A stretch of 39,951 nt of DNA, taken from Pseudomonadota bacterium. Lineage in GTDB: Bacteria > Pseudomonadota > Gammaproteobacteria > Burkholderiales > Gallionellaceae. This document shows, in pieces, positions 1 through 10,232 of this stretch (positions are counted from its first letter, which is position 1; each line of letters opens with the position of its first letter). Made by a program: the position numbers and the translations under genes. The notes under the pieces are model-generated. The model had not been told where the DNA came from and made no database searches. It saw nothing but the letters and a program-made list of their open reading frames with translations. The stretch is taken from assembly GCA_026399735.1 (NCBI GenBank), contig JAPLQK010000109.1, positions 1 to 39,951 of the forward strand. The letters are read 5' to 3'.

Positions 1-506
1 TATATTTTGTTAATACCGTCCTTGTGTAAAGTTTGGTAAGAATTGCGCGCATTTTCAAACGTGTTGTCGGAAGCGTCTTCCATCCAGCGCACCGGTACCT
101 GAAAATCCTGTTCCAGCGAAGCGCGCATTTGCTCAGCTTCTGAAGTGCTGTTGCCGAGCGGCATGCCGCCGGTTACCAGAATCGGCAGCTTGAATTCGCG
201 TTGCAGTCTGGCGCCATAACGCAGGCGCACCAGCGTGGCGTCGCTGACGGTGTCATGAGCTGCATATTCCGGTGCGTGAAAGTAACTTCCGCCGCCCAGT
301 ATCACGATCGCCTGAGCGGCGGCTGGATTTTGCTTCAGCGGTTGTGCTTCGATCAGGTGTAAGGCGCCTTCGGCGATATACGGCGTCGAAGCTGCCCAGA
401 GCAAGGCGAATGTAACGATGATCAGTCGCCGCGCCGCCCTGGGGTGGCGATAAATGAGTCCGATGCCTATCAGCAGCATGAGCAGCAGGCTCAGCGGCGG
501 CAGCAT
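1..506 (-). CDS. YdcF/DUF218 (ElyC/SanA-like) membrane-anchored protein, partial
   Basis: The gene runs off the left edge; about 168 residues from the N-terminus are visible. It starts at an ATG (506-504) with a hydrophobic N-terminus (MLPPLSLLLMLLIGIGLIYR), a short basic stretch and a second hydrophobic segment, so it is probably membrane anchored. A DUF218 core follows, with the family motifs VILGGG, LVTGG and a downstream E-D-S-NTFENA signature. Members of this family (YdcF, SanA, ElyC) are linked to envelope or peptidoglycan metabolism, but their reaction is mostly unproven, so no substrate is assigned. The C-terminal end lies outside the window. Confidence 0.8.
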   Translation of the reverse strand, partial: MLPPLSLLLMLLIGIGLIYRHPRAARRLIIVTFALLWAASTPYIAEGALHLIEAQPLKQNPAAAQAIVILGGGSYFHAPEYAAHDTVSDATLVRLRYGARLQREFKLPILVTGGMPLGNSTSEAEQMRASLEQDFQVPVRWMEDASDNTFENARNSYQTLHKDGINKI

Positions 507-722
507 TTACAAATCAAGAACAAATGCTAGTTCAGTTTTGATTTGCAATCATCCACTGATGTGTTTGTCAGTAAGCTTCACAGAAGCATTGCGTTGCTGG
601 CAAGGGTGTTGGAAGAGTTGAGCTAGATAGCCTCGTGTTAAAGAATTAACCTTCGTGATTGGATTGCCGACCTTAAGTATCTTGTATTGCTCGTAATTAT
701 AAATTTTACATCTCTTTTATGC

Positions 723-751
723 TTGACTTGTTTGTTTTTGGTGAGTAAGAT
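723..751 (+). promoter_or_regulatory. Sigma70-type promoter for the 781-2088 cassette
   Basis: TTGACT (723-728) and TAAGAT (746-751) are separated by 17 bases and lie 30 bases before the ATG at 781. Both hexamers are close to consensus. The location fits transcription of the three-gene cassette. Inferred by eye. Confidence 0.5.
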
Positions 752-780
752 CGCATTTGCTAAATAAGGGCGAGGCAAAA

Positions 781-1278
781 ATGACAACAAATAATCTGGT
801 TTTAACTATCGGTGTGCCTGTTAGCACAGGCCTTTTTATTCAACTTTCTGACTTCCTGCGCGAAAAGAATGATCCTCGTGATCCCGTACTTGTTGTATCG
901 GATGCAATAGAGTACTGGCTCGCGAATGCAGATTGGAAGCCAGAGTTATTGATTGAAGAAAGTAACAAGATTAGTCGCGGCTATCAGTGGAAAAAACTTT
1001 TCCTCCCTCATGGCACTGAGCTAAGAATGCAGTACAAAGGTACAAATTTCTACGCGAAAGTTGAAGGTGAGGAAGTGATTTATGATGGCAAGTCAGTATC
1101 TCCAGCTTCAATGGTTAATTCCATATCCGGAACAAGTAGAAGTGCATGGCGTGATATGTGGTTTAAACGACCTGATGATAAACAATGGTTGCCTGCAATA
1201 GACTGGAGCAAGGAAAAAGAAAGTCAAAGAGAACTTGGTCAAAAATTGCTCGATGAGTTCATGGGCGCGGTGAAATAA
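781..1278 (+). CDS. Hypothetical protein, first gene of a three-gene accessory cassette
   Basis: I do not recognise this 165-residue soluble protein. The frame is open from a TTG at 757, but that codon lies only a few bases after the predicted -10 element, and the ATG at 781 (MTTNNLVLTIG) follows a purine-rich stretch, so 781 is preferred. There is no signal peptide or membrane segment. The N-terminal half has a hydrophobic/acidic pattern (VVSDAIEYWLAN) that could be a small helical or ribbon-helix-helix-like element; the C-terminal half is basic and tryptophan-rich. The stop is one base before the ATG of the next gene, so the two are very likely co-transcribed. Base composition is more AT-rich than the housekeeping genes downstream, as expected for acquired DNA. 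An antitoxin or accessory role is possible but unproven. Confidence 0.6.
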   Translation: MTTNNLVLTIGVPVSTGLFIQLSDFLREKNDPRDPVLVVSDAIEYWLANADWKPELLIEESNKISRGYQWKKLFLPHGTELRMQYKGTNFYAKVEGEEVIYDGKSVSPASMVNSISGTSRSAWRDMWFKRPDDKQWLPAIDWSKEKESQRELGQKLLDEFMGAVK

Positions 1279-1279
1279 A

Positions 1280-1558
1280 ATGACAACACTTACACAGCAC
1301 GCAGCGATGCGAATGCAGCAACGCGGTATTCCGCTGATGGTCGATCAACTACTTGATCTGTATGGGCAGGAAGAATATGACGGGCATGGAGCTGTCACTC
1401 TCTACCTTAACAAAACCAGTATTCGAAACATGGAGCGTGATTTTGGTCGTAGCCCGGTATCGCGGCTTGCAGAATGGTTTGATGCCTATAAAGTGAAAAG
1501 CACTGATGGCTTCACAATCACTGTTGGTCATCGTACTCGCCGTCTCTGGAGAAAATAA
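1280..1558 (+). CDS. Small DUF4258-like protein, possible toxin-type nuclease fold
   Basis: This 92-residue basic protein opens with HAAMRMQQRGIP, which resembles the N-terminal H-x-x-x-R-M-x-x-R-x-I signature of DUF4258 and related small toxin-like families. It ends in a basic tail (GHRTRRLWRK). It begins 1 base after the previous stop, and its own TAA shares one base with the ATG of the following gene, so the three genes form a tight operon. DUF4258 members have been proposed as RelE/BrnT-like toxins. That suggests a toxin paired with a neighbour, but the similarity is judged by eye from a short motif. Confidence 0.55.
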   Translation: MTTLTQHAAMRMQQRGIPLMVDQLLDLYGQEEYDGHGAVTLYLNKTSIRNMERDFGRSPVSRLAEWFDAYKVKSTDGFTITVGHRTRRLWRK

Positions 1559-2088
1559 TGGGAGCAGATGCAATCAAAGTATCAATATCCCCGAATCTGT
1601 CAGGCATTCCGTCATCGTTCGATGTTTCCTTCACAACGGCGATCGAAATGCTGCATATTCTTGCGCTCGGTAAGTGGGAATCAACCGCACCTGAACTAGG
1701 AATGACAGGCGTGCGCAACGGAATATCGCTCAAAAATAGTCAACAGGCGCGGCTCCATTATCTTCTGGAGGGTATTGGGGTGATCAATTCAGAGCATACG
1801 TATTCCACACTGGCAGTGAAAACACGTAATCCAAAAGGGAATACGGATTCAAAGATTACAAAGAGGAAGCCTGAACAGGGGCTTGCCCTGAATGGTCGCT
1901 GGTACCTTGATTGCTGCTTGAATCTGGGGCAAAAACTGGAAGTTGTTGATGCACTCAGTCACTTGGGTTATTCAAGGGGATTTATAAAGATTGCGAAATT
2001 TTTCGTTGAAGGTATTCTACTAACCAAAACGCCCATCAAGGCCGATACTGGCGCGGCTTTCAAAAACCGTAACGGGCATCCGTTTTAA
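1558..2088 (+). CDS. Hypothetical protein, third gene of the accessory cassette
   Basis: This 176-residue soluble protein has no signal peptide, membrane segment or family motif that I recognise. Its ATG overlaps the stop of the preceding gene by one base (TAATG), a translational-coupling arrangement. The middle is polar and lysine-rich (KTRNPKGNTDSKITKRKPEQ), followed by a more hydrophobic part containing a CC pair (WYLDCCLNLGQ). Its size and linkage to a DUF4258-like gene would suit an immunity, antitoxin or regulatory partner, but nothing in the sequence proves it. No recognisable terminator follows. Confidence 0.55.
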   Translation: MGADAIKVSISPNLSGIPSSFDVSFTTAIEMLHILALGKWESTAPELGMTGVRNGISLKNSQQARLHYLLEGIGVINSEHTYSTLAVKTRNPKGNTDSKITKRKPEQGLALNGRWYLDCCLNLGQKLEVVDALSHLGYSRGFIKIAKFFVEGILLTKTPIKADTGAAFKNRNGHPF

Positions 2089-2222
2089 CTTATAACTGGT
2101 AGCGGGGTTTTATTGAAAAGTTGTTGCAGGTCGCGTAAACCAGCGAAGAATCGGCAGGTTGAGAGCTTGCTTTTTACTTGTAATGGCATATGTAAGCAAT
2201 CAAAAATAATTAAGGAGATGTA

Positions 2223-2624
2223 ATGTTCAAATTATCTAAAATAATACCACTAATAGCCGTAACCCTATGTTTAGTAAGTTGTGGGGCAACAATGGTGAAG
2301 CCAGTAAACACTGGAAGTAAATATGCGCCATTAAATGAAAACAACGGAGATGGTGAAGTATTTTATCGGTTAGGCATAATGGATGCTTTTAATACATCTC
2401 AAAGAGAAAGCGCATACAAGCAAATGTTTGAGCAATGTAACGGTAAATATAATATTACTAATGAATGGACTGATGAGCAAAACTCTAGCAGCGGCTTTTC
2501 ACAATCATCAGCGAGAGGCTATGCAAATAATAATCAAGCGAATGCAAAGGGGCAAAGTAGCAGCGCATACTCTAGTGGCACCACTCTTTATCAGCACATT
2601 ACATTTAGATGTGATGGTAAGTAG
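2223..2624 (+). CDS. Small secreted lipoprotein of unknown function
   Basis: This 133-residue protein has a clear lipoprotein signal peptide: basic start (MFKLSKI), a hydrophobic core and the lipobox LVSC with Cys at about residue 20, so it should be lipidated and attached to an envelope membrane. AAGGAG about 6 bases upstream is a strong ribosome binding site and fixes the start. The mature part is polar. A Ser/Asn/Gln-rich low-complexity stretch at about residues 90-120 precedes a C-terminal segment ending in FRCDGK, whose Cys could pair with the Cys in MFEQCNGK. The gene is AT-rich and sits beside a secreted repeat protein, so both may belong to one acquired surface module. The function is unknown. 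Confidence 0.65.
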   Translation: MFKLSKIIPLIAVTLCLVSCGATMVKPVNTGSKYAPLNENNGDGEVFYRLGIMDAFNTSQRESAYKQMFEQCNGKYNITNEWTDEQNSSSGFSQSSARGYANNNQANAKGQSSSAYSSGTTLYQHITFRCDGK

Positions 2625-2654
2625 AATTTAAAAAGGCGCCCAAGGATGGTCGAA

Positions 2655-2983
2655 ATGAAAAAATAATTACCGTAGCTACTTTAATGATCTCAATGGTAAA
2701 TGTTCAGGCTCAGACTAGTTGCCAGCAGATTGGTAATCAGTACATCTGCAATGATGCGTCTGGCAATAGTTCTACAACCCAGCAGATAAGTAATCAGCGA
2801 ATTACCAGTTACAGCGATGGCGAGTCTGCAATTAGCCAGCAAATTGGTAATCAGCGCGTCACTCACTATAGTAACGGTATAAGCGCAACCACTCAGAAGA
2901 TAGGTAATCAAACAATAACGAACTACAGTGATGGGCATACGGTTTCCTGTCAAAATATTGGTAATCAGCGCGTATGTAACTGA
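2655..2983 (+). pseudogene. Secreted 19-residue repeat protein, frameshifted in an A-run within the signal peptide
   Basis: The intact reading frame (ATG at 2684) encodes four 19-residue repeats of the type QIGNQRxTxYSDGxSAxx and a partial fifth. The ends are capped by matching Cys motifs (CQQIGNQYIC and CQNIGNQRVC), suggesting a disulfide-closed beta-solenoid. An upstream ATG at 2655, preceded by AGGA, reads only three codons (ATG AAA AAA TAA). Adding one A to the six-A run (2658-2663) would give MKKIITVATLMISMVNVQAQ, a textbook signal peptide continuing directly into the repeats. I therefore read this as one secreted protein of about 109 residues interrupted by a -1 homopolymer slip. It could be a sequencing error, a true pseudogene or a phase-variable switch. 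Confidence 0.65.
2726..2980 (+). repeat. 57-bp in-frame tandem coding repeat
   Basis: The repeat protein has a strict 19-residue (57-base) period, with units starting at residues 15, 34, 53, 72 and 91 of the frame beginning at 2684. Each unit starts Q/K/N-I-G/S-N-Q. Units are diverged at the DNA level, so this is an old coding duplication and not a CRISPR array. Confidence 0.75.
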
Positions 2984-3264
2984 ATTTGTACGATAATTGT
3001 GCAAATTTAATGCCGATTCACCCCCTGTGCGCCGCCGAAGATAGTCAGCAAACAGCAGTGCAGTTGGGCGAGGATTGTTTGAGCACGTGGCCGCAAAGCG
3101 GATCGTGCGAGTTCCGCAGCACCGCTGTTTGTGAGCTATCAAGGGGCAAGCCGCTTGGGGGACATCAGGCAGGCGGCGCGGCAAACCAGCTGCCGGGCTG
3201 CCACCGGCAAAAGTAAAAATTAATAGCGTTGCAGCCTGCTTACGCCGGCAAATTAAAATATCAT
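2984..3264. other. Spacer without a supported gene
   Basis: This GC-rich stretch between the repeat protein and the rplM promoter holds short overlapping open frames on both strands. None has a convincing start, family motif or codon pattern. Part of the plus strand looks like a decayed coding fragment (short peptides in two frames), possibly the end of an old element. I see no RNA gene in it. Confidence 0.4.
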
Positions 3265-3294
3265 TTGACATGGGGCAGGTGCATGAACTAGAAT
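3265..3294 (+). promoter_or_regulatory. Promoter of the rplM-rpsI operon
   Basis: TTGACA (3265-3270) and TAGAAT (3289-3294) are separated by 18 bases, 46 bases before the rplM ATG. The perfect -35 and near-consensus -10 suit a strongly expressed ribosomal protein operon. Confidence 0.65.
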
Positions 3295-3339
3295 TCGCGC
3301 CCTTCGAGGTTTCAATATAGAATTATAGGGTTAGTGGAT

Positions 3340-3661
3340 ATGAAAACATTTTCCGCAAAAGCACACGAAGTCCAGCACGAATGGCTTCTGGTTGATGCTG
3401 CAGATCAAGTGCTCGGCCGGTAATAAAGCTGAAGCCAAGCTGTATCATCGCCATACAGGTTATCCTGGTGGACTGTACACGACGAATTTCACCAAAATGC
3501 AAGGCCGTCATCCGGCCCGCGTTCTGGAAAAAGCAGTCAAGGGCATGTTGCCTAAGGGCCCGTTGGGCTACGCGATGTTGCGCAAAATGAAGGTGTATGC
3601 AGGTTCTGCTCATCCTCATGAAGCACAGCAACCGACACTCATTAACTTGTTGAAGGCTTAA
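3340..3661 (+). pseudogene. rplM: 50S ribosomal protein L13, with an internal out-of-frame deletion
   Basis: The first 27 codons encode a normal L13 N-terminus ([15 protein letters not shown]...VLGR) and then hit TAA at 3421. One base out of frame, the sequence resumes at 3422 with [17 protein letters not shown] and continues through the hallmark [16 protein letters not shown] to a normal C-terminus at 3661. Compared with the usual 142-residue L13, about 39 codons are missing between VLGR and (VTG)NKA, roughly 116 bases. The missing part contains the RGKHK...HVDTGD core. The short GGCCGGT at the junction could be a deletion or mis-join point. L13 binds 23S rRNA early in 50S assembly and is normally essential, so an assembly artefact or a second intact copy should be considered. 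It is followed by rpsI 2 bases later, the usual pair. Confidence 0.85.
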
Positions 3662-3663
3662 TC

Positions 3664-4056
3664 ATGACTGTCTCTTATAACTACGGAACAGGTCGTCGCA
3701 AGAGCGCGGTGGCACGTGTTTTTATCAAGGCTGGCAAGGGCGATATCGTTGTAAACGACAAACCTGTTGATATCTATTTCTCACGTGAAACCGGCCGCAT
3801 GATTGTGCGTCAACCGTTGGGTCTGACCGATACACTGGGTCAGTTCGATATCATGGTTAACGTATCCGGCGGCGGTGAAAACGGCCAGGCGGGTGCAGTT
3901 CGTCACGGCATCACACGTGCCCTGATCGACTACAACGCAGACTTCAAGCCTGTGTTGAAGGCAGCCGGTCTGGTTACACGCGATGCGCGTGAAGTCGAAC
4001 GTAAGAAAGTGGGCTTGCGTAAAGCTCGCCGCAGGAAACAGTTCTCCAAGCGTTAA
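3664..4056 (+). CDS. rpsI: 30S ribosomal protein S9
   Basis: This is a full-length 130-residue S9, a small-subunit protein whose C-terminal tail reaches the P-site tRNA. The N-terminus ([16 protein letters not shown]), the central [15 protein letters not shown] and the basic tail [14 protein letters not shown] ending in the invariant Lys-Arg are all present. It starts 2 bases after the rplM stop and is followed by a strong intrinsic terminator. It appears intact, although its operon partner rplM is damaged. Confidence 0.98.
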
Positions 4057-4073
4057 TCGTTTGGTTGGATTGC

Positions 4074-4097
4074 AAAACCGCCTTCGGGCGGTTTTTG
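4074..4097 (+). terminator. Intrinsic terminator after rpsI
   Basis: An AAAACCGCC...GGCGGTTTTT hairpin with a TTCG tetraloop and a T-run lies 17 bases after the rpsI stop. It is a classic rho-independent terminator that closes the ribosomal operon before argC. Confidence 0.9.
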
Positions 4098-4132
4098 CTT
4101 TATCATGCCGTGTAATTACGAAAGGGGCTGCG

Positions 4133-5161
4133 ATGATCAAGGTTGGCATAGTAGGCGGAACGGGGTACACCGGCGTAGAGTTGCTGCGTTTGTTGGCCTT
4201 ACATCCACAGGTTAAATTGCAGGTGATCACTTCGCGCGCGGATGCCGGCACCCGCGTCGATCAGATGTTCCCGAGTCTGCGCGGTTTCGTCGATCTGCTG
4301 TTCGTTCATCCGGATGAAGCGCATCTTGAACAGTGCAATCTGGTTTTTTTCGCCACGCCCAACGGCATTGCAATGCAGCAGGCGCGCGTGCTGCTGGATG
4401 CGGGTGTCAGGGTGATCGATCTGGCGGCGGATTTCCGTTTGCAGGACATTGCATCCTGGGAAAAATGGTATGGCATGACGCATGCCTGTCCTGACCTGGT
4501 CGCAGAAGCTGTGTATGGCTTGCCGGAAATCAACCGCGAGAAAATCAAATCGGCCCGGCTGATTGCCAATCCCGGCTGTTATCCGACCGCTGTGCAACTG
4601 GGGTTTATTCCCCTGCTGGAAGCGGGCGTAATCGAGCCGGGCAGTCTGATCGCCGATGCCAAATCGGGCGTGTCGGGTGCCGGCCGTCGTGCGGAGATTC
4701 CTGCACTATTTGCCGAGGCCGGGGATAACTTCAAGGCTTACGGCGTTGCAGGGCATCGACATCTTCCTGAAATTAAACAAGGACTTGCGAGTATTCTCGG
4801 CGGCGGTGTGGGGCTGACGTTTGTGCCGCATTTAACCCCCTTGATACGCGGCATTCACGCGACGCTGTACGGCAAACTGACACGCGATGTGGACTTGCAG
4901 GCTTTGTTCGAACAGCGTTACGCCGGCGAATCCTTCGTCGATGTGATGCCCGCAGGCTCACATCCCGAAACCCGTTCGGTCAGAGGGTCGAACCGTTGCC
5001 GTATCGCCGTACACCGGCCGCAGGGCGGCGACACCGTGGTGGTGCTGTCGGTGATCGACAATCTGCTGAAGGGCGCGGCAGGTCAGGCGGTGCAGAACAT
5101 GAACATCATGTTCGGTTTTCCTGAGAATATGGCGCTGAATATCGTTCCGTTATTGCCGTAA
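4133..5161 (+). CDS. argC: N-acetyl-gamma-glutamyl-phosphate reductase
   Basis: ArgC catalyses the NADPH-dependent reduction of N-acetylglutamyl phosphate to its semialdehyde, the third step of arginine synthesis, in the cytoplasm. The 342-residue protein has the nucleotide-binding N-terminus [11 protein letters not shown], the active-site motif NPGCYPT with the catalytic Cys at residue 149, and a C-terminal dimerisation domain with AGHRHLPEI. The frame is open upstream to 3983, but that would overlap rpsI and the terminator. The ATG at 4133, preceded by AAAGGGG, gives the family-typical start MIKVGIVGG. Confidence 0.96.
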
Positions 5162-5216
5162 ATGGCTGCGCGAGGTTCCCATTAAAGCGTGGCGTCGCGC
5201 CCGACGGGGCTTCAGT

Positions 5217-5918
5217 ATGCGCCCCCTGTCGGTGCGTCCGCATATTGCCTGGTATTATCGCTGGAGTATGGTGTTGCCGTTCGTGCTGGCAGCGGCAGGA
5301 CTCGTCTGGTTCGCCTATGACAGCGGGCTGGAATTTGCCGGTTTTCATCGCAGTGAGACGCAGCGTGAACTGACCCGGTTGCAGGCAAGCCTTGCCAGGC
5401 TCAGCGTTGAAAATGTGGAGTTGGGTAAGCGGATTGCGCAATATCAGCAGCAAATTCAGATGGAACAGGGCCGCAGTCAGGAAACGGCGCGACAGATGAA
5501 GAGTCTGACTGATGACAATGCCCGTTTGCAGGACGACTTGAGTTTTTTTCAGAATCTGACCGCTGCAAACGGCAAGGAAGGGGAATTGGCGATTCACCGG
5601 CTGAGTCTGGAACGCGATAAAATTCCGGGAGAGTACCGTGTGCGTATGCTGCTGGTGCAGAGTGGCCAGCGCGTAAAGGAGTTCGAGGGAGGCTATGAAT
5701 TGATTGCGACACTGGTGCAAAACGGTCGTAAATCAACACGGCTATTTCCCTCCACAGAGTCAGGACATGACCTCTTTGCGCTAAAATTCAAGTATTATCA
5801 GCGACTGGAACAAAATCTTCGACTTTCACCCGATGTGCAGTTGCAGAGCATTCAGGTAAGATTGTTCGAACAGGGGGTGCATGAACCTCGCGTACGGCAA
5901 AGCGTCAATCTTTTTTAG
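5217..5918 (+). CDS. Single-pass membrane protein with coiled coil (DUF6776-like)
   Basis: This 233-residue protein has one membrane segment at about residues 19-36 (VLPFVLAAAGLVWFAY), then a long heptad-like region (about 45-115, rich in Leu, Gln and Arg) predicted to form a coiled coil in the periplasm. The C-terminal part is compact and beta-like. Proteins of this layout are commonly found between argC and bactofilin in betaproteobacteria and have been grouped as DUF6776; that naming is from memory and fits length, topology and location. Together with the bactofilin 15 bases downstream it may act in cell-envelope organisation. The function is not established. Confidence 0.75.
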   Translation: MRPLSVRPHIAWYYRWSMVLPFVLAAAGLVWFAYDSGLEFAGFHRSETQRELTRLQASLARLSVENVELGKRIAQYQQQIQMEQGRSQETARQMKSLTDDNARLQDDLSFFQNLTAANGKEGELAIHRLSLERDKIPGEYRVRMLLVQSGQRVKEFEGGYELIATLVQNGRKSTRLFPSTESGHDLFALKFKYYQRLEQNLRLSPDVQLQSIQVRLFEQGVHEPRVRQSVNLF

Positions 5919-5933
5919 TCCGGGGAGAAGCCG

Positions 5934-6338
5934 TTGTTCAACAAGAAGCACAGCAAGCCGCAAAACCGCATCGATACCCTGATAGGTACAGGAACGGTCA
6001 TCGATGGGAATATCAGTTTCAGCGGGGGTATGCGCATAGACGGGCAGGTGAACGGTGACGTGATCGCAGCACCCGGCAAGCCGTCGACGCTGGTGTTGAG
6101 TGAGCAAGGATGTGTGCACGGCGAGGTGAACGTGACGCATCTGGTGGTCAACGGGGTGATCAGCGGGGCAGTGACCGCCAGTGAATATCTGGAACTCCAT
6201 GTAAAGGCGCGAGTCACAGGCGACGTGCATTACAAGCTGCTGGAAATACAGGCAGGCGCAGTTCTTGACGGGCGTCTGAACCACATCAACCTGGCTGACC
6301 ATGAAAAAGTTGTGGTATTAAAAACAGGTATTAATTAA
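5934..6338 (+). CDS. Bactofilin family cytoskeletal protein
   Basis: The 134-residue protein has the bactofilin (DUF583/CcmA-like) beta-helix core: [29 protein letters not shown] followed by repeated hydrophobic/glycine strands ([22 protein letters not shown]). Bactofilins polymerise without nucleotides and position envelope or cell-shape factors. Translation starts at TTG (5934) behind a strong GGGGAG site about 7 bases upstream; no ATG would keep the N-terminus. It lies 15 bases after the coiled-coil membrane protein and 17 bases before erpA. Confidence 0.9.
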
Positions 6339-6355
6339 TAATCTTAGGAGAAATC

Positions 6356-6709
6356 ATGAATGCAACGACTGAAGTAGCACAAGACCTGCTGGTTTTTACT
6401 GACAACGCAGCAGCCAAAGTAAAACAACTGATTGTGGAAGAAGGCAATCCGGATCTTAAATTGCGCGTGTTTGTCAGCGGCGGCGGCTGTTCCGGCTTTC
6501 AGTACGGTTTTACCTTCGATGAAGTGGTCAACGAAGACGATACGGTGCTGGACAAGGACGGCGTGCAACTGCTGATCGACCCTATGAGCTTTCAATATCT
6601 GGCCGGCGCCGAAATCGACTACACGGAAGGTCTGGAAGGTTCGCAGTTCGTCATCAAGAACCCGAATGCCACCACCACCTGTGGTTGCGGATCCTCGTTC
6701 TCGGCGTAA
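6356..6709 (+). CDS. erpA: Iron-sulfur cluster insertion protein ErpA
   Basis: This A-type carrier of 117 residues receives Fe-S clusters from the assembly machinery and delivers them to apoproteins. The three conserved cluster cysteines are in [11 protein letters not shown] and the C-terminal CGCGSSFS. The N-terminus ([13 protein letters not shown]) and [15 protein letters not shown] match ErpA rather than IscA. TAGGAG precedes the ATG and a strong terminator follows. Many Fe-S enzymes in this window (Qmo, Hdr, NapFGH, NapA, NirJ) would depend on such carriers. Confidence 0.95.
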
Positions 6710-6738
6710 ATACGCAGTATTTTCAAATAGATGCAGAA

Positions 6739-6768
6739 CGGGCCGGATTTTATCCGGCCCGCTTTTTT
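6739..6768 (+). terminator. Intrinsic terminator after erpA
   Basis: A 10-bp perfect stem CGGGCCGGAT / ATCCGGCCCG (6739-6748 and 6752-6761) with a three-base loop is followed by six T residues (6763-6768), 30 bases after the erpA stop. Confidence 0.92.
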
Positions 6769-6896
6769 AAAGCCGTAAAGTAGTCGTTGGTGATGTGCTG
6801 AGTAAAAAACCAGTCCAGACAGGAGCCATGGTGCATAACCGCATGCCACGTCGGTCTTAGATCCGCTAAGAATAGATCCGGATAGTTCGGGGTTAT

Positions 6897-8048
6897 TTAT
6901 TGCGATTTGGGTTTCGGGCGCTTACCGATCTTCACTTTTGAAGCTAGTTCAGTTCCGCTGCGCAGCACTTTAATCTCGACAGTTTTACCGGGCGGCAGGT
7001 TGGATACGGTGTCCAGCATGGAACTCCAGTTGTCTATTGCACGGTTGTCAATTGACACCAGAATGTCCCTTGTCTTGATCCCGGCCTTTTCTGCCGGGCT
7101 GTTGCGGATTACTTCGGTTATCAATACGCCGTGTACATCACTGAGTTTGAATGACGCTATCATTTCGGGCGTGAGTTCCTGCACGGCAGCCCCTATCCAT
7201 CCGCGTGTTACCGAACCCGTCTGGATGATTTGTTCCATGGTCTTTTTCGCGATCGTCGCCGGTATTGCGAAGCCGATTCCCAGTGATCCGCCATTGGGCG
7301 AATAGATCGCGCTGTTGATGCCGATCAGGTTGCCATTGACGTCTACCAGCGCTCCGCCGGAATTACCCGGGTTGATGGCGGCATCGGTCTGGATGAAATT
7401 TTCAAAGGTATTCAGACCGAGATGGTCGCGTTTAAGTGCGCTGATGATGCCCATTGTGACGGTTTGACCGACGCCGAAGGGATTGCCGATTGCCAGCACC
7501 ATGTCGCCGACATGCGCAGTTTCGGGATGACCAAAGGTGACGGAGGGTAAATTGCCGGGCAGTTCAATCTTGATTACCGCAAGGTCCATTTCAGGGTCAG
7601 AACCAATGACATGTGCGCGTGCTTTCCGGCCATCTGCCAAGGCGACTTCGATCTGGTCAGCCGCTTCGACAACATGGTGATTGGTGAGGATAAAGCCGTC
7701 AGCGCTTACAATTACGCCTGAACCCAGACTGGCGCTTTGTTGCGGCGAGCTTTCCTGGTCGCCGAAGAAGAAGCGGAAGCGAGGATCATCGACGAAGGGG
7801 TTGGCCGGCGTTTTGATGGTGGTGCTGGTGAAAATATTCACGACTGAAGGCATGGCTTTTTTTGCGGCCACGCTCAAGCCGGTGCTGGGTAATGCACCAT
7901 CGGTCGAAGGGGCTGCACTTTCATACAGTGTGACGACCGTGTTGCGCGCCGCAGTGGGCAGCAGTTCGGGTCTGAGCGTATGCACAATGAACAGCAAAGC
8001 CAGTGCGATGGTTACAGTTTGAGTGAATAACAGCCAGTGTTTACGCAT
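6897..8048 (-). CDS. DegS/HtrA-like periplasmic serine protease, one PDZ domain
   Basis: The protein is anchored by an N-terminal membrane helix (about residues 8-23) and exposes a trypsin-like protease domain and a single C-terminal PDZ domain to the periplasm. The catalytic triad is visible: His125 in TNHHVV, Asp155 in DLAVIK and Ser230 in NPGNSGGAL. At 383 residues with one PDZ and a membrane anchor it resembles DegS/AlgW, the site-1 proteases of the sigma-E stress pathway, rather than two-PDZ DegP. The open frame extends 18 codons further to 8102, but that would run into the divergent gene at 8092; MRKHWLLF at 8048 is the better start. No rseA/rseB homologue is nearby, so the substrate is unknown. 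Confidence 0.92.
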   Translation of the reverse strand: MRKHWLLFTQTVTIALALLFIVHTLRPELLPTAARNTVVTLYESAAPSTDGALPSTGLSVAAKKAMPSVVNIFTSTTIKTPANPFVDDPRFRFFFGDQESSPQQSASLGSGVIVSADGFILTNHHVVEAADQIEVALADGRKARAHVIGSDPEMDLAVIKIELPGNLPSVTFGHPETAHVGDMVLAIGNPFGVGQTVTMGIISALKRDHLGLNTFENFIQTDAAINPGNSGGALVDVNGNLIGINSAIYSPNGGSLGIGFAIPATIAKKTMEQIIQTGSVTRGWIGAAVQELTPEMIASFKLSDVHGVLITEVIRNSPAEKAGIKTRDILVSIDNRAIDNWSSMLDTVSNLPPGKTVEIKVLRSGTELASKVKIGKRPKPKSQ

Positions 8049-8091
8049 GGTAAGATGAATCGGATGTTGTATTGATAATTCAGGGAAAAAT

Positions 8092-8838
8092 ATGAAACTC
8101 ATTCAGTTGCGCGATTATAACGCAAGCCTGTTGCAAACCGCTCAATTCAAGGATTATTGCCCGAACGGGATTCAGGTCGAAGGGCGGGAGGAGGTGCTGC
8201 GCATCGCCACGGCGGTAACAGCTTCGCAGCAGGTGATCGATGATGCTATCAACTGGGGCGCAGATGCGATTGTCGTGCATCACGGCTATTTCTGGCGTAA
8301 TGAAGATGCCTGCATTGTCGGTATCAAGAAGAAGCGTATCGCGCAACTGTTAAAAAATGAAGTAAGTCTGCTGGCATACCATTTGCCGCTTGATGCGCAC
8401 CCTGAGTTTGGCAACAACGCGCGACTCGGCAGACTGTTCGGTTTGACGGAGCAAGGCCGTTTTGGCGAACAGAACATTGCGTGTTTCGGTACGCTGGAGG
8501 CCGTGCAGACGTTAGCACGATTTTCAGAAGTGGTCGCGTCCGGCTTGCAGCGCAAGCCCCAGGTTATCGGTGACGCCGGCCGGATGATACGGCGAGTGGC
8601 ATGGTGCAGCGGTGGCGCTCAGGGTTATTTCGAGGCCGCCATTGCGCTGGGTGTGGATGCTTTTCTGACCGGAGAAATTTCTGAACAAAATTATCATCTT
8701 GCCAATGAAACGGGCGTGGCCTTTATCGCGGCAGGTCATCACGCGACCGAGCGTCCGGGTATACAGGCACTGGGGGAACATCTGGCGGCCCAGTTCAATC
8801 TGGAACATCGATTTTTCGATCAGAACAACCCGATTTAG
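8092..8838 (+). CDS. Nif3-like dinuclear metal-center protein (YbgI/GCH-I type 2 family)
   Basis: This 248-residue protein has the Nif3/YbgI signature: YCPNGIQVEG near the start, the metal-site IVVHHGYFW, LPLDAHPEFGNNARLG in the middle, and a C-terminal TGEISEQNYHLANE...AAGHHATERPG. The conserved His/Glu/Asp set for two metal ions is intact. The family forms toroidal hexamers. An annotation as GTP cyclohydrolase 1 type 2 is common but the physiological role is uncertain. It is divergent from the DegS-like gene with only 43 bases between start codons. Confidence 0.93.
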   Translation: MKLIQLRDYNASLLQTAQFKDYCPNGIQVEGREEVLRIATAVTASQQVIDDAINWGADAIVVHHGYFWRNEDACIVGIKKKRIAQLLKNEVSLLAYHLPLDAHPEFGNNARLGRLFGLTEQGRFGEQNIACFGTLEAVQTLARFSEVVASGLQRKPQVIGDAGRMIRRVAWCSGGAQGYFEAAIALGVDAFLTGEISEQNYHLANETGVAFIAAGHHATERPGIQALGEHLAAQFNLEHRFFDQNNPI

Positions 8839-8941
8839 GCATGGACAGTCAAGGATTGCTATAATTGCGCCGCATCAACCGTATCACGATTGCGGTGGCG
8901 GTTTCTTGATGAGACGATGCCGGTTATTAACAAGGAGTCGC

Positions 8942-9406
8942 ATGAAACGTTACAAAGATTTGGTTGATGATGCGCTTACCCGTGTTAAGGAAATCCAGCC
9001 GTGGGATCTGAGCAAGCAGCTGGCTGCCGGCCGGCAATATATTCTGCTCGATGTGCGTGAGCCCTGCGAGTTCGACACGCTGCGTATGCCCGGTACCATC
9101 AACGTGCCGCGCGGTGTATTGGAGCAATCCTGCGAGTGGGATTTCGATGAAACTGTGCCGGAACTGGTCAATGGACGCGATCGCGAGATCGTAGTCATTT
9201 GTCGTTCGGGTTACCGTTCGGTACTCGTTGCCGATGTGATGCAACAAATGGGCTTTAGCCGGGTGGCCTCACTTAAAAGCGGGGTGCGGGGTTGGAACGA
9301 TTTTGATCAGCCGCTGCTGGATGTATCCGGCAGTGTTGTGGATGGCGATGCGGCGGATGAGTTGCTGATGCCGAGACTGCGGCCCGAACAGCGCCAGCCG
9401 AAATAA
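8942..9406 (+). CDS. Rhodanese-like sulfurtransferase
   Basis: A single rhodanese domain fills this 154-residue cytoplasmic protein. It has ILLDVREPCEFDTLRMPGTINVPRG near residue 40 and the active-site loop CRSGYRS with the persulfide-forming Cys. The frame extends upstream to 8699 inside the Nif3-like gene, but the ATG at 8942 behind CAAGGAG is clearly the start. A thioredoxin-like gene follows 41 bases later, suggesting a small thiol/persulfide relay. The sulfur donor and acceptor are not evident. Confidence 0.9.
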   Translation: MKRYKDLVDDALTRVKEIQPWDLSKQLAAGRQYILLDVREPCEFDTLRMPGTINVPRGVLEQSCEWDFDETVPELVNGRDREIVVICRSGYRSVLVADVMQQMGFSRVASLKSGVRGWNDFDQPLLDVSGSVVDGDAADELLMPRLRPEQRQPK

Positions 9407-9447
9407 TACCGAATCATAAATGAGCATGAAACCAAACGAGGCTGACT

Positions 9448-9804
9448 TTGAGTAATTATTCCTGCAATGTAGAAGAAGATAGTTTTGATGCACTGGTGGT
9501 GGCGCGATCGCATGAAATCCCGGTGCTGGTCGATATCAGCGCGGACTGGTGCGCACCTTGCAAGGTGCTGGCACCCCTGCTGCACAAGATGGTCACCGTT
9601 TACGACGGAAAATTCATGCTGGGCATGGTGGATGCTGACGAAAACATGAAGATTGCCGGTCGGCATAAGGTGAGAGGCTTCCCCACCGTCGTGGCCTATA
9701 GTCACGGTGTGGAAGTGGCGCGTTTTCACAGTTCGCAGACGGAAGGTTTTTTGCGCGAGTTCATCGAACGTTTGATTGAGCGGCATGCCGCCCCTCAGGA
9801 TTAG
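9448..9804 (+). CDS. Thioredoxin-like protein
   Basis: This 118-residue cytoplasmic protein has a thioredoxin fold with the redox motif WCAPCK, VDADEN after the first helix unit and the cis-Pro in RGFPTV. It lacks a signal peptide. The start is TTG at 9448, preceded by GAGG; the nearby ATGs are out of frame. Residues around the motif (VLVDISADWCAPCKVLAPLL) are close to TrxA, but the N-terminus is longer than in thioredoxin 1, so it is called thioredoxin-like. It probably works with the adjacent rhodanese. Confidence 0.9.
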   Translation: MSNYSCNVEEDSFDALVVARSHEIPVLVDISADWCAPCKVLAPLLHKMVTVYDGKFMLGMVDADENMKIAGRHKVRGFPTVVAYSHGVEVARFHSSQTEGFLREFIERLIERHAAPQD

Positions 9805-9875
9805 CGTGTTAGGGCAAGCGTCATCTTCGGATGACGTGCTTTCCCATAAGAAACGCTGCAAAAAACTTCAGGCAT

Positions 9876-9917
9876 AAAAAATCGCAGGCTTATCGGTCAA
9901 AACCGATAAGCCTGCGA
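9876..9917 (-). terminator. Intrinsic terminator for the tusE/dsrC-like gene
   Basis: A perfect 16-bp inverted repeat (TCGCAGGCTTATCGGT at 9882-9897, complement at 9902-9917) with a CAAA loop is followed on the minus strand by six U residues (A-run 9876-9881). It ends minus-strand transcription 22 bases past the stop of the DsrC-like gene and could also limit read-through from the thioredoxin-like gene. Confidence 0.9.
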
Positions 9918-9938
9918 GAACAGCAACCTTTTTTGAGC

Positions 9939-10232
9939 TTACACGCAGCCGGTAGGTTTTGGCATGCCGCCGTATTTTGTGATCGGTTTCATCGGACCAG
10001 TCATCCATAGTTCGAATACCTCTTTCTGATCTTCGCCTATGTGCTTGGCAAATTTTCGTATTGGTGGTACCGAACCAAACTGCTCGTAAAATTCACGCGC
10101 TTTCATGATCTGATCCCACTTTTTATCATTCAGCTCATAGTCATCAGCTTCAGCCATTGCGCGGCCAATTTCCGGTGTCCAGTCACTCATATCGACGAGA
10201 TATCCGTCTCCATCACGATTTGGGATTTGCAT
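9939..10232 (-). CDS. DsrC/TusE-family sulfur relay protein with a single C-terminal Cys
   Basis: The 97-residue protein matches the DsrC/TusE/DsvC family: DGYLVDMSDWTPEIG near the start, PPIRKF in the middle and the swinging arm ending GGMPKPTGCV with the conserved penultimate Cys. The second arm Cys that true DsrC carries 11 residues earlier is replaced by Thr (PITKYGGMPK), so the trisulfide chemistry of sulfite-reductase DsrC is unlikely. This makes it TusE-like or one of the DsrC paralogues found in sulfur oxidisers. It lies in a minus-strand group with a nitroreductase and sqr, which supports a sulfur-carrier or regulatory role rather than tRNA thiolation alone. No tusBCD or dsr genes are in the window. 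Confidence 0.88.
   Translation of the reverse strand: MQIPNRDGDGYLVDMSDWTPEIGRAMAEADDYELNDKKWDQIMKAREFYEQFGSVPPIRKFAKHIGEDQKEVFELWMTGPMKPITKYGGMPKPTGCV

Follow-up and report, generated by a model that had tools for sequence, protein, structure and literature searches.

The gene rplM, encoding ribosomal protein L13, lies at positions 3340–3661 on the forward strand of the window (i.e., the whole stretch of 39,951 nucleotides analysed here) and its core lacks exactly 116 bases, which, judged from sequence comparisons, is very probably an assembly error in the draft genome. The organism itself most likely has an ordinary L13 of 145 residues. The source assembly (G000) amounts to 2,382,419 bases in 117 contigs, of which the window is contig 105, and is 81.73% complete.

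In a base-by-base comparison, rplM is 322 bases long in the window vs. 438 in all ten relatives, which represent nine distinct rplM sequences (those of L029 and L037 being the same). The exact loss is 38 codons and 2 bases, and the joint falls at 3418–3421, where 79 or 80 gene bases remain to the left of the best break; eight of the ten relatives give exactly these two positions, while L028 and L010 also permit neighbouring ones. Instead of the single open frame of about 142–147 codons that characterizes L13, the window holds two parts in different frames. The 5′ part (3340–3420, 27 codons) encodes the same 27 residues as L022 and L023, with the arginine of codon 27, at the joint, specified by a synonymous codon, and is followed by a TAA stop at 3421–3423. 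Searched on its own, it has no Pfam match, and it aligns with TIGR01066 over positions 4–29 (E 0.01). The 3′ part (3419–3661, 80 codons plus the stop) matches PF00572 over positions 54–119 (E 2e-17), and its 80 residues are all the same as in L022 and L023. For the gene as it stands in the window, the PF00572 score exceeds the cut-off (62.8 vs. 23.8 bits), while the TIGR01066 score falls below it (90 vs. 93.05 bits). When the L022 protein was searched against solved structures, L13 chains were matched over nearly their full length, including the core that is missing here.

The bases immediately upstream of the gene are similar to those of the relatives, and rpsI (ribosomal protein S9; 3664–4056, forward strand) directly follows rplM, the usual placement for L13. 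It is intact, matches PF00380 across residues 10–130, and is 98% identical to its counterpart in L032 and 94% to that in L037, both from Gallionellales draft genomes, which are the closest named relatives by this gene. The organism thus very probably belongs to the Gallionellaceae. The initial annotation, which had described an out-of-frame internal deletion of about 116 bases with both ends conserved, about 39 codons lost, a stop at 3421 and an intact rpsI, was therefore accurate in its numbers. It had also named a GGCCGGT junction, whose reading as a repeat-like joint we do not retain: judged from the sequences of the relatives, the two deletion ends have only one base in common in most cases, and a deletion between direct repeats was rejected for lack of any repeat at these ends in the relatives. 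Further upstream, the region 757–2983 carries five open frames without any Pfam match over the cut-off, and its G+C content is below that found elsewhere in the first 12 kb. Among the best 40 blastn rows between window positions 1–10000 and the loci of the relatives, none extends upstream of 3407, apart from the own copy of the window (L001). This region is perhaps a strain-specific island.

The two kept parts are in excellent condition. Compared with L022, the left part shows two base differences over 26 full codons and the right part 14 over 81 codons (stop included), all of them synonymous. With respect to each of L023, L025, L029, L030 and L032, neither side shows more than one base difference that changes an amino acid. 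Such a nearly unchanged protein in both parts implies that this is not a long-dead gene, and that the deletion, if real at all, must be very recent. DNA identity to the left and right of the joint reaches 97.5% and 94.2% with L022, and 97.5% and 92.6% with L032. Because both sides resemble the same relatives, a join between two unlike organisms at 3419 was rejected; the joint could nevertheless be one between two very close strains.

To see rplM in the context of its own genome, we surveyed 1,179,697 bases of G000 (about half of it, in 73 pieces including the window, with seven all-N contigs left out) against 1.2 Mb of G056, a congeneric genome whose 3.16 Mb form a single contig. Out of 1032 G056 frames, 291 were testable, and in five of these shared genes, rplM included, G000 has lost bases seamlessly and out of frame between conserved flanks, the joints all being exact to within 0–2 bases. 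Along with the 116 bases lost from rplM at 3418–3421 (protein flanks 100 and 99% identical), these deletions affect the gene for elongation factor EF-G (L144, contig C114, near base 1662; 80 bases, protein flanks 98.5 and 98.1% identical), a glycosyltransferase-like gene, so named from a match below the cut-off of its model (L126, contig C11, near 1360; 119 bases, flanks 88 and 89%), ttcA (L207, contig C47, near 17732; 35 bases, flanks 95 and 83%) and a gene of the DsbD_2 family (L138, contig C71, near 1980; 71 bases, flanks 87 and 84%). The broken EF-G gene is the only one, since no further EF-G above the family cut-off was found in the assembly. The reverse survey covered 295 of 1101 frames and revealed no G056 deletion that measured at least 20 bases and had conserved flanks.

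These counts come from split matches. In the first direction, there were ten, of which five were dropped: two G000 insertions (22 and 5 bases), a repeat-like match and two single-base shifts. In the reverse direction, there were six, two of which are the counterparts of the rplM and glycosyltransferase-like deletions already described, while the other four consist of one repeat-like match and three shifts by 1–8 bases. In-frame gaps of five or more residues are about as numerous in both directions (36 in 289 genes and 34 in 295 genes in reverse); ten of the 36 are deletions in G000, the largest spanning 19 residues with poorly matching flanks. Since small in-frame changes of this sort occur in both directions, they were not counted as faults. 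Among them, no in-frame deletion of the seamless kind with conserved flanks was seen in G000, even though the in-frame search would have shown such deletions.

The initial annotation had left three options, i.e., an error of sequence or assembly, an intact copy of rplM elsewhere, or a split L13 tolerated in this lineage, and it is the first that emerges as best supported, because four more such deletions occur in the same genome, including one in its sole EF-G gene. That other genes of G000, including another essential one, are damaged in the same way makes an assembly mistake the most likely origin of the gap in rplM. Likewise, two broken translation genes (EF-G and L13) whose proteins are otherwise nearly unchanged, in a single draft genome, point to assembly rather than to evolution.

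How the error might have arisen is suggested by the conservation of the missing stretch itself. Among six distinct close relatives, 5 of its 115 sites are variable, compared to 6 of 80 in the 5′ part and 41 of 243 in the 3′ part. In a ranking by mean identity over rplM, rpsI and 60 bases upstream (seven loci, two of them identical), the 116-base interval comes 17th of 776 (0.984 vs. a mean of 0.916). Moreover, the longest exact run shared by two loci (59–206 bases) overlaps this interval in 12 of 15 pairs, the duplicate L037 being set aside. When related species live in one sample, a DNA stretch that they share acts as a branching point at which short-read contigs end. The genome was presumably built by short reads from a metagenome, in which case related species sharing a near-identical stretch of rplM would have caused contigs to end there; two such contig ends may then have been joined without the missing piece, and the reads would still carry the lost segment. 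Another family genome, G095, offers a parallel: its L13 gene is spread over two contigs, the first of which stops at gene base 92 while the second starts at base 106, so that the break falls inside the very stretch missing from the window.

Three observations sit less well with an assembly error of this type. First, sequence conservation is not a general reason for the five deletions, because at least two of the others, those of the glycosyltransferase-like and DsbD_2-family genes, are located in less conserved DNA. Second, contig ends cut L13 elsewhere in two other genomes, at gene base 241 in the partial copy of G062 and at gene base 316 in G064. Third, all five deletion lengths (35, 71, 80, 116 and 119 bases) leave a remainder of 2 on division by 3, a coincidence for which random joins do not account (about 1 in 80 by chance, as judged after the fact).

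The distribution of L13 across the family bears on both alternatives to an assembly error. Out of 158 family genomes, 143 yield an L13 match with an E-value not exceeding 0.001, and in 140 of these the protein is full-length without internal stop, the exceptions being the window genome, G064 and G095. The gene is thus intact in the close relatives, including the ten compared base by base. Among the matches listed, none of the 143 genomes has two full-length copies, while G062 combines a full L13 with a partial one, and G095 contains two partial ones. No match at this threshold was obtained in the remaining 15 genomes, including G004 (94% complete in about 50 contigs, yet devoid of an L13 match) and G021; the missing L13 of G004, G021 and the 13 others probably reflects contig gaps.

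Under the first alternative, the deletion is real, in the strain or in part of the population, and an intact rplM resides in the unassembled genome or in other cells. The sequence is indeed clean on both sides of the joint, and in an assembly that is only 81.73% complete, a second copy could be missing. Nevertheless, the search for such a copy, which the initial annotation had called for, returned none in the 117 contigs. PF00572 gives one match only, while TIGR01066 recovers the two parts of rplM (E 1.9e-25 and 0.01) plus two matches at chance level (E of 0.18 or more). Neither is the missing segment found in the assembly when the L022 rplM is used as a DNA query: the 17 matches are the two known parts and 15 at chance level (E of 0.9 or more). 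A copy of the gene, or the missing segment, could still lie in the unassembled part, about 18% of the genome. Combined with the lack of family genomes having two full-length copies among the matches listed, and with four other deletions, including that of EF-G, which a backup rplM leaves unexplained, these results make a real deletion with a backup copy improbable.

The second alternative, a lineage in which L13 is really split, supposes that a free-living bacterium makes the protein as two short pieces or through a frame shift, without 38 core residues, or that L13 is dispensable to it. The amino-acid sequence is kept in both parts and start codons for reading the 3′ frame exist (e.g., TTG at 3392), but the gene contains no sequence taking the place of the missing core, and 140 of the 143 matching genomes have a full-length L13 with no internal stop. 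Furthermore, the joint was found in no other rplM of the 158 family genomes searched, which leaves a split-tolerating lineage without support. A degenerate pattern of the joint matched only the window genome and G008, and the latter match is unrelated, as it is located on contig C14 while the full-length rplM of G008 is on contig C7. L13 is normally essential for the life of the cell. The early steps of large-subunit assembly require five proteins, L13 among them (PMC6736130), and a split or dispensable version of such an early assembly protein would be very surprising. In the consulted portion of another study, 44 of 56 bacterial ribosomal proteins are present in all 995 genomes, and the proteins that this portion names as missing do not include L13 (PMC3353972). 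Altogether, a real split or a dispensable L13 appears very unlikely, even more so than a real deletion with a backup copy.

Returning to the assembly error that we favour, it is supported by five deletions in 291 shared genes vs. none in the reverse comparison of G056, by EF-G and L13 being broken while their protein is otherwise nearly unchanged, and by the strong conservation of the missing stretch, inside which the G095 contig also breaks. As seamless internal deletions affect several conserved genes of G000, a broken gene in this assembly calls for support from reads before any biological interpretation.

Genomes from metagenomes are known to be limited by gaps and local assembly errors, and errors left uncorrected spread incomplete or incorrect gene sequences through public databases, as stated in the consulted part of PMC7111523. 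The case of rplM resembles the local errors described there in that one faulty place results in an incomplete gene; the sign used in that text is missing read support, whereas the window case rests on comparative evidence. With respect to bacterial L13 itself (uL13; TIGR01066/PF00572), the gene of the window differs in lacking 116 core bases and in having its two parts out of frame, while both parts match the family and stand beside rpsI, as in the relatives.
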